From a virus: a stretch of DNA of 21,923 nt. The position numbers and the translations under genes are program-made. The notes beneath the pieces are model-generated. The model saw nothing but the letters and a program-made list of their open reading frames with translations. It ran no database searches and was not told where the DNA came from. Numbering within the stretch: the stretch's first letter is position 1; each line of letters starts with the position of its first letter. Location: the IMG/VR virus record IMGVR_UViG_3300009508_000072, positions 1 through 21,923 of that record; one strand, written 5' to 3'. This document shows, piece after piece, positions 18,632-20,150 of this stretch.

Positions 18632-18805
18632 TTAATTGAACTTAGTTGAACGAATAATCATAGCGGCATAGTCGGGGCGATTAGATTGTACCCAACCGTT
18701 ATTGCAACGCAAGCAAAGCTTTTCAGTTACATCATTATAGCTGACATAGTAAAAGCCAGTCACCTTGCACAATTCCTTAATGTCTTTCCAGGTTGTCTTT
18801 GTCAT
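18632..18805 (-). CDS. Hypothetical 57-aa protein, first leftward early gene
   Basis: Reads MTKTTWKDIKELCKVTGFYY, then SYNDVTEKLCLRCNNGWVQS; Cys at 13, 31 and 34. I do not recognise it; the LCLRC pair might bind metal but one partner is missing. The frame stays open to 18853, but that start would lie upstream of the transcript start predicted from the promoter at 18843-18870. The ATG at 18805 has AGGA 9 bases ahead and is the better start. First gene of the early unit. Confidence 0.65.
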   Translation of the reverse strand: MTKTTWKDIKELCKVTGFYYVSYNDVTEKLCLRCNNGWVQSNRPDYAAMIIRSTKFN

Positions 18806-19009: not shown

Positions 19010-19052
19010 AAAGGATGGGTGGAGTAGGTGTATTTGACTTGCAATGTGTTAT

Positions 19053-19080
19053 ATTATAACATATGTAATAAATATGTCAC
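19053..19080 (-). promoter_or_regulatory. Second sigma70-like leftward promoter
   Basis: On the minus strand GTGACA (19080-19075), a 16-base spacer and a perfect TATAAT (19058-19053). Its transcript would run left across the direct repeats at 18974-19009 and on into the early genes, giving a long untranslated leader of about 240 bases. Confidence 0.5.
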
Positions 19081-19225
19081 AGTAGTGGTATCCTGGCCAC
19101 AATGTTGCAGGAATATCACAATGTGTTACCTAGAAGACACACTTAGGGGCATAGAGGGGGTTAGGGGGTAAGCCCTATTCATGAAATACGACTAAAGATT
19201 TTCTATATAAAATTTACTACCCTAC

Positions 19226-19266
19226 AAAAATAAAGAAACCCTCCACCAGAATTAACTGGGGAGGGT
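19226..19266 (-). terminator. Strong intrinsic terminator on the minus strand
   Basis: ACCCTCC (19238-19244) pairs with GGAGGGT (19260-19266) and CCAG (19246-19249) with CTGG (19256-19259). This gives an 11-bp stem with one bulged A and a six-base loop (AATTAA). Read leftward it is followed at once by TTTCTTTATTTTTG, a good U-tract. No protein gene on the minus strand lies to its right. Confidence 0.8.
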
Positions 19267-19283
19267 CAACTTGTCGAGGGCCA

Positions 19284-19335
19284 ACTTCAAGTATGTTACT
19301 TTAAGTATGTTACTTTAAGTAACTTACTTTAAGTA
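19284..19335 (+). repeat. 14-bp tandem repeat array, four copies
   Basis: The core ACTTTAAGTA starts at 19284 (variant ACTTCAAGTA), 19298, 19312 and 19326, exactly 14 bases apart. Copies are joined by TGTT, TGTT and ACTT. Each core with flanks forms a short palindrome (GTTACTT-T-AAGTAAC or CTTACTT-T-AAGTAAG). The spacing and palindromic nature recall iterons or repeated operator sites. Confidence 0.75.
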
Positions 19336-19403
19336 AGGGTACTATAGACGAAGTAAACTCCTACTCCTATAATATTCTAATGTAGAAGGAGTTGTCTACC
19401 CTT
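19335..19403. repeat. Long imperfect inverted repeat between the two repeat clusters
   Basis: AAGGGTA (19335-19341) pairs with TACCCTT (19397-19403), GAC (19347-19349) with GTC (19394-19396), and AACTCCT (19356-19362) with AGGAGTT (19387-19393). The AT-rich loop holds TATAATATT. The stem joins the four-copy and the two-copy 14-bp clusters into one symmetrical structure, in DNA as a cruciform or in RNA as a hairpin. Confidence 0.55.
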
Positions 19404-19423
19404 TAAGTAACTTACTTTAAGTA
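19400..19423 (+). repeat. 14-bp tandem repeat, second cluster of two copies
   Basis: The core recurs at 19400 (variant CCTTTAAGTA) and at 19414 (ACTTTAAGTA), again exactly 14 bases apart. The run from 19402 to 19426 repeats the end of the first cluster (TTTAAGTAACTTACTTTAAG) base for base. Confidence 0.75.
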
Positions 19424-19463
19424 AGGGGAATACTATTAGGGCCCCTCTCGGAGGGGTAATGAA

Positions 19464-19492
19464 ATTATACATGGTTTTGTCGTACTTGTCAA
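19464..19492 (-). promoter_or_regulatory. Perfect consensus sigma70 promoter, leftward
   Basis: On the minus strand TTGACA (19492-19487), a 17-base spacer and TATAAT (19469-19464): full consensus in both hexamers and spacing. Its transcript would start near 19457 and run into the repeats and the terminator at 19226-19266. Confidence 0.85.
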
Positions 19493-19516
19493 GCCCCCTA
19501 CTAATAATACATGGGG

Positions 19517-19545
19517 TTGACAGATAAAATAAGGTGTGGTATAAT
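19517..19545 (+). promoter_or_regulatory. Perfect consensus sigma70 promoter, rightward (late/structural unit)
   Basis: TTGACA (19517-19522), a 17-base spacer and TATAAT (19540-19545), full consensus. It lies about 62 bases before the terminase-like start, with the transcript start expected near 19552. The 24 bases between the two back-to-back -35 boxes, together with the boxes, form an inverted repeat: TGTCAA-G-CCCC and GGGG-TTGACA. Confidence 0.88.
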
Positions 19546-19613: not shown

Positions 19614-20150
19614 ATGAATCTCATGATGTTCTCTATAGATCAATTAAAAGCTAGTAACGGTAAGACTATGAGTAAGAGGCTCTTCTATGAGCTTTGTTAC
19701 ACTGATCCCTCTCAGGCTCTCTTTACATTGAAGGAGAGAGACTTAGTAGTTAGGGGTAAGACTATGTTGTCGTTACAGCAGCTATACCTTAGCTTAGTAC
19801 CTAACGACCCAACTGAGTATGAGTTTGCTATGACTCTCTTTGGTTCATGGGAGATATGGCAAGACTTTAATAAGTCACCAGTACTCAAGCCTTACATTGC
19901 TCGTTGGCGTAAAGAGGCTGAGATTAAAGTTAAGAGTGAGGCTATTAAGTCTATAGCTGAGGAGATGAGGAGTGGTGGTCGTTCCTCCTTCGGGGCAGCT
20001 AAGCTTCTCCTTGAACGTGGTTGGTTAGATAAAGAGGCTGCTTCTCAGGCTAAGCGTAAGCTTCAAGAGAAGGAAGATGAAGAGTTAGACAAAGAAGCTC
20101 GTACTCTTCTCAGTGAGGATGCTGAACGTTTAGGGATTAGGGTAAACTAG
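19614..20150 (+). CDS. Terminase small subunit-like protein
   Basis: This 178-aa protein is helical, with KTMSKRLFYELCYTDPSQALFTLKERD, LSLQQLYLSLVPNDPTEYEFAMTLFGSWEIWQ, PYIARWRKEAEIKVKSEAI and AAKLLLERGWLDKEA, then a charged coiled tail. The pattern (LFYE..., LFTLK..., LYL...DPTEYEFA...W..W, PYI..WR.E...) is that of proteins usually called terminase small subunit in marine podoviruses. They recognise phage DNA for packaging. No HTH motif is plain. It is the first gene behind the strong rightward promoter. The ribosome binding site is weak (AAGAAAG). The large subunit is not in the window, so the call stays moderate. Confidence 0.55.
   Translation: MNLMMFSIDQLKASNGKTMSKRLFYELCYTDPSQALFTLKERDLVVRGKTMLSLQQLYLSLVPNDPTEYEFAMTLFGSWEIWQDFNKSPVLKPYIARWRKEAEIKVKSEAIKSIAEEMRSGGRSSFGAAKLLLERGWLDKEAASQAKRKLQEKEDEELDKEARTLLSEDAERLGIRVN

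Follow-up and report, generated by a model that had tools for sequence, protein, structure and literature searches.

Near the right end of the T7 genome the promoter phi-OR fires toward the terminal repeat, and transcription halts near the junction at the CJ pause. The lambda OOP and 6S RNAs combine a host promoter, a short non-coding RNA and a terminator, and the OOP promoter influences replication (PMC12197685). Another phage non-coding RNA gene, that of phi29 pRNA, lies near the genome end (PMC6266182). The unit described here shares anatomy with each of these systems and is a full member of none. It lies in a window of 21,923 nucleotides (positions 1 to 21,923 of IMG/VR virus record IMGVR_UViG_3300009508_000072), which comes from a cobavirus (Zobellviridae, near Veravirus). 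Cobaviruses are among the most abundant marine phage groups reported (PMC6918029); they have T7-like replication genes and direct terminal repeats (DTRs) (PMC6775973) and are without an RNA polymerase of their own (PMC6775973, PMC6918029). The literature searched contained nothing on cobavirus transcription and no right-end RNA in these phages.

Two convergent arms and genes for cobalamin RNR, ThyX, MazG, PhoH and a T7-like primase/helicase place the window with the Veravirus-like Cobavirinae. Among named phages it lies closest to Lentibacter phage ICBM2 and to Roseobacter phages CRP-5 and CRP-4. Gene order is that of ICBM2 and CRP-5 as far as the fragment extends, and the primase and late gene are 57% and 66% identical to those of ICBM2. 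The ICBM2 record carries an annotated 159-bp DTR, and the ends of this genome are known from published read mapping (PMC6775973). At the ICBM2 right end the late gene is followed by the late promoter, an outward promoter TTGACA-17-TATAAT, about 250 nt, a terminator (GACTCC..GGGGTC-TTTTGCTTT), then ...AGAAAATCTTTAGTCGC and the start of the repeat, ATTGTACATACAG. The same order is seen in CRP-5 and in the window. Because the ends of ICBM2 are mapped and this order is shared, the unit is placed at the far right terminus of the linear virion DNA, facing the end, back-to-back with the late promoter and outside the early operon. By homology to ICBM2, it points at the terminase cut and DTR about 50 nt past the terminator, within a cut-site region at 19180..19225 (minus), with the DTR predicted to start at about 19187, between AGAAAATCTTTAGTCG and TATTTC. 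Across loci the distance from the end of the terminator hairpin to the cut site has a minimum of 41 nt and falls at 41-47 nt in 28 of 47. The link to the gene at 18805 implied by an earlier note on this sequence is thereby overtaken: that gene belongs to the opposite end of the linear virion DNA, as do the other early genes, which in the window appear to follow the unit; they adjoin it only in concatemers or in the assembly.

The first late gene (phrog_8035; 19614..20150, plus) stands beside the unit. In several other Zobellviridae (ICP2, GP100, CW02, CVT22, GX1 and T5S1) the phrog_8035 gene lies directly before TerL, which suggests that its product is the small terminase subunit; the assignment rests on gene order, since a fold search of the protein gave no TerS match. 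In cobaviruses this gene has changed its place and now stands next to the cut site at the genome end. The late promoter (TTGACA-17-TATAAT, 19517..19545, plus, 12/12) is predicted to drive the late arm.

Other conserved sequences were observed at the genome ends. A palindrome, TGTTATATTATAACA, at 19047-19061 in the predicted terminal repeat of the window overlaps a minus-strand promoter GTGACA-16-TATAAT, and very similar palindromes are found at the ends of ICBM1, ICBM2, SIO1, P12053L, CRP-4, MEP401 and relative L004. CRP-like palindromes, TTTGTGATCACAAA, are repeated just inside the terminal repeat in L029, L031, L043, L048, L050, L066, L082 and L090-L100. At the left genome end, ICBM2, ICBM1, SIO1, CRP-4 and some environmental relatives have in common a second conserved non-coding element, CATCGGCAA[AG]CAAACACCG, about 40 nt, then GAGCAAG[CG]CCTAGCAA (L255:475-550, L102:349-427, L103:2067-2143, L013:40610-40683, also L062-L065), which had no Rfam or tRNA match.

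All parts of the unit lie on the minus strand of the window. The outward sigma-70 promoter (19464..19492) has a full-consensus score of 12/12 with a spacer of 17, as read in the earlier note, and transcription is predicted to start at about 19457. Directly after this start is a GC hairpin, CCCCTC-CGA-GAGGGG (19442..19456), followed by an upstream-arm repeat copy with the palindrome CTTACTTTAAGTAAG (19401..19432), a central imperfect hairpin, AGACAACTCC...GGAGTT...GTCT (19336..19400), resembling one in L003 and L004, and a 14-bp repeat array with three more ACTTWAAGTA copies (19285..19344), so that repeat blocks flank the hairpin. All four ACTTWAAGTA sites of the window fall within the unit and none elsewhere (8 strand hits against 0.3 expected). 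The predicted RNA of about 230 nt (19226..19457) ends at an intrinsic terminator (19226..19266), in which ACCCTCCCCAG (19266-19256) pairs with CTGGTGGAGGGT (19249-19238) across a TTAATT loop, giving 11 pairs with one bulged T, and the U-rich tail TTCTTTATTTTT ends at 19226. A simple terminator scan missed it, probably owing to the bulge; the stretch containing it folds at -21 kcal/mol. There is no ATG in the unit. The longest frame, which opens with TTG and has no ribosome-binding site, spans 12 codons, and no shared ORF or coding leader peptide was found. The segment 19336-19400 lies in opposite orientation in the window and L028 compared with L004 (antisense alignment score 38; shuffled maximum 20), as if it had been flipped between its own flanking inverted repeats.

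Folding of 19225-19458 gave -74.4 kcal/mol, compared with -52.8 +/- 4.6 for shuffled sequences (z = -4.74; 0/200 as low), and z was -3.9 when the terminator was left out. Thus the promoter, the 11-bp stem with its U-tract, the 5' GC stem, the repeat array, the imperfect hairpin and the missing start codon, all noticed earlier from the letters of the window, hold up on closer inspection. The unit has its own promoter, its own intrinsic terminator and no ORF between them, as expected of an autonomous phage small-RNA gene of the OOP/6S kind.

Conservation was followed through an alignment of the late gene, which yielded 80 loci, of which 44 distinct upstream regions were counted. With a cut-off of at least 11/12 for the promoter and a terminator required within 300 nt, the outward promoter is present in 39 of the 44 and the promoter-terminator pair in 38, while over ten rounds of shuffling the mean was 0.7 promoters and the pair never occurred. 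The exceptions are CRP-4, L039, L092, L097 and L099, in which the promoter is weakened or absent at this cut-off, and L080, in which an apparently longer terminator hairpin was missed by the filter. The outward promoter is mostly 12/12 in the relatives; the late promoter is mostly 11/12, in most of them as TTGACA-17/18-TATACT. The terminator stem covaries: across 28 relatives 88% of cells are paired, 37 cells are changed on both sides, and the covariation score is 0.44 against 0.22 (0/500 shuffles). Hairpins at the 5' end occur in 65% of distinct relatives, compared with 38% in shuffles (maximum 57%) and 6% behind the late promoter, and their stems differ in sequence yet still pair (UCAGCCC/GGGGUGA, GCUGC/GCAGC, AUCCC/GGGAU, UCCG/CGGA). 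The stems at both ends are thus kept in relatives, as the reading of a structured RNA had anticipated.

Between these ends the RNA is far more variable. Its length ranges from about 105 to 255 nt, the interior evolves fast, and mean z over 31 RNAs falls from -3.5 to only -1.6 without the terminator; because length and sequence vary so widely and this value is weak, a large share of the interior may be free of constraint. The clades were too divergent for a structural alignment of the interior over the whole set, and clade alignments yielded only the 5' hairpin, the terminator and a few local stems. Some sequence does recur. The motif TAAGGACA is present in 12 of 31 distinct RNAs and CAGATTC in 9 (expected <0.1), and TAAGGACA followed by GTYCAGATTCT is found directly before the terminator in many clades; the motif is not clearly single-stranded. 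Palindromes of the ACTTWAAGT type also recur in other clades, so a repeat-binding protein, one of the partners proposed at the outset, is possible. A replication primer, also among the candidates then named, is a possible role as well. Titration of ribosomes through the GGAG and CUCCU segments found no support: they were seen only in the small clade of the window, pair with each other and are inverted in L004. Of the overall interpretation given in the earlier note, the discrete structured non-coding RNA unit is upheld by conservation and covariation, while its relation to the 18805 gene and the ribosome titration are not.

Searches for a known counterpart were negative. At gathering and relaxed thresholds no Rfam family matched the unit beyond chance, a search for tRNA and tmRNA found none, and named phages searched by BLASTN with the unit gave no relevant match. 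A pattern search of viral contigs with the 15-nt hairpin returned mostly unrelated contigs. A search for host mimicry of the conserved motif gave 77 hits over unrelated bacteria, close to the number of about 60 estimated by chance, and these matches look fortuitous. In the window, ICBM2 and CRP-5 no antisense target was consistent or scored above shuffled RNA, translation starts included. The ICBM2 record annotates a terminator at mid-genome but neither the one at the right end nor the RNA. That central bidirectional terminator of cobaviruses is also intrinsic, but it separates the two arms at mid-genome, unlike the one at the right end.

The unit can now be set against the described systems. 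Like lambda OOP and 6S it joins a host promoter, a short non-coding RNA and a terminator; unlike them it belongs to T7-like lytic phages and lies at the physical genome end by the terminal repeat, with no gene opposite to which it is antisense and no late operon downstream, and its complementarity to phage translation starts is no better than that of shuffled queries, whereas OOP is of the antisense type. The resemblance to phi29 pRNA lies in being a non-coding RNA gene near the genome end, but neither length nor interior is conserved, there is no Rfam match and the unit is missing from related phages with the same late gene; because of this last absence it is probably not a generally needed part of the packaging motor. 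By homology to the ICBM2 DTR, its promoter would fire toward the terminal repeat from the right end, as phi-OR does. It differs from phi-OR and CJ in having a host sigma-70 promoter in place of a phage RNA polymerase promoter, a true intrinsic terminator and a structured RNA, and the CJ sequence ATCTGTT is not found near the genome end.

The promoter-terminator pair is absent from Siovirus (ICBM1, SIO1, P12053L) and from phage T5S1-k141_653015, although both carry the late gene and have a cut-site region that can be recognised, and the outward promoter is absent from Methylophilales phage MEP401 too. A tree of the late gene agrees with confinement of the unit to the Veravirus-like part, with losses, although several long branches make the deeper placements unsure. 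Since Siovirus and further Zobellviridae have the same late gene but lack the unit, it is an accessory of a single lineage and probably no packaging component common to all Zobellviridae.

We prefer to read the unit as a gene for a stable small RNA because both ends of the RNA are structured, the unit is non-coding, and it has a consensus promoter and a terminator of its own. That the host transcribes it into a phage small RNA not described before, and that this product is what counts, has, in our judgement, an even chance of being right. The analysis establishes how the DNA is arranged, that this arrangement is conserved, that it does not code for protein, that the terminator covaries and that the 5' stems change yet still pair; from this we infer transcription, stability and action in trans as follows. 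From the consensus promoter at the right genome end, which faces away from the late promoter, host sigma-70 RNA polymerase would make an untranslated RNA and would stop at the intrinsic terminator just short of the terminase cut and terminal repeat. The RNA would owe its durability to its 5'-terminal hairpin and to the stem of the terminator. Without depending on the early operon, the unit could be transcribed from the linear DNA on its entry, and more strongly once copies have built up. The RNA would most likely act in trans, binding a protein or a host RNA through its repeated or conserved elements, for which the ACTTWAAGT palindromes in the clade of the window and GGACA.GTYCAGATTCT in other clades are candidates.

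Chance promoter- and terminator-like sequence without function is hardly credible, being refuted by covariation and by 38 of 44 relatives against none in shuffles. The act of transcription may matter and not the RNA, a possibility that we take seriously and still consider unlikely. The unit could then be a right-end origin or DNA-processing element, by analogy with T7 phi-OR or lambda pO, at which host polymerase would open or prime the genome-end DNA and the terminator would block run-through into the cut site. Its orientation toward the terminal repeat, the spacing between hairpin and cut site, the fast-evolving interior and the combination of T7-like replication genes and DTRs in phages without an RNA polymerase (PMC6775973) are consistent with such a role. 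The role needs neither a 5' hairpin nor a conserved sequence motif, however, and the late gene is retained without the unit in Siovirus and other Zobellviridae (in Siovirus along with the cut-site region); the missing CJ pause sequence also argues against it.

The distance between the -35 elements of the two promoters clusters at 24, 35-37, 48-49, 57-59 and 69 bp, with a period of 11-11.5 bp (R 0.65, null <0.0005; 30 distinct loci; 19487-19522 in the window), though the clusters stem partly from shared ancestry. This phasing, the presence of both promoters in nearly every relative and the confinement of the palindromes to the unit would fit an outward promoter that helps to regulate the late one. 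In this view polymerases moving apart, together with a regulator at the ACTTWAAGT repeats, would adjust late transcription through supercoiling or through competition, and the RNA would be a by-product needing termination. We regard this as rather improbable; the 5' hairpins are left unexplained by it, and the late promoter of Siovirus stands without a partner. Lambda 6S RNA offers a parallel for a short leader that is terminated, and across a concatemer junction the unit is oriented toward the early genes, so it could in principle be an early-operon leader, read through across the terminal repeat with an antiterminator as at lambda pR'-tR' with Q or in a put-like manner. This is disfavoured because in linear DNA the unit falls at the right end, the early genes being at the other end of the infecting molecule; moreover, nearly all relatives retain the strong terminator, and read-through would re-express early genes at the wrong time. 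Such a leader appears highly improbable.

For the phages themselves, the small RNA, or its transcription as far as the border of the cut site, might aid terminal-repeat formation or packaging and replication where no phage RNA polymerase exists. We offer this as a doubtful suggestion; if true, the unit would be a host-polymerase counterpart of T7 phi-OR or phi29 pRNA. Kept in dozens of relatives and encoding no protein, the unit has a strong claim to represent a new family of phage small RNAs, one that is directly testable in the cultured members ICBM2 and CRP-5.
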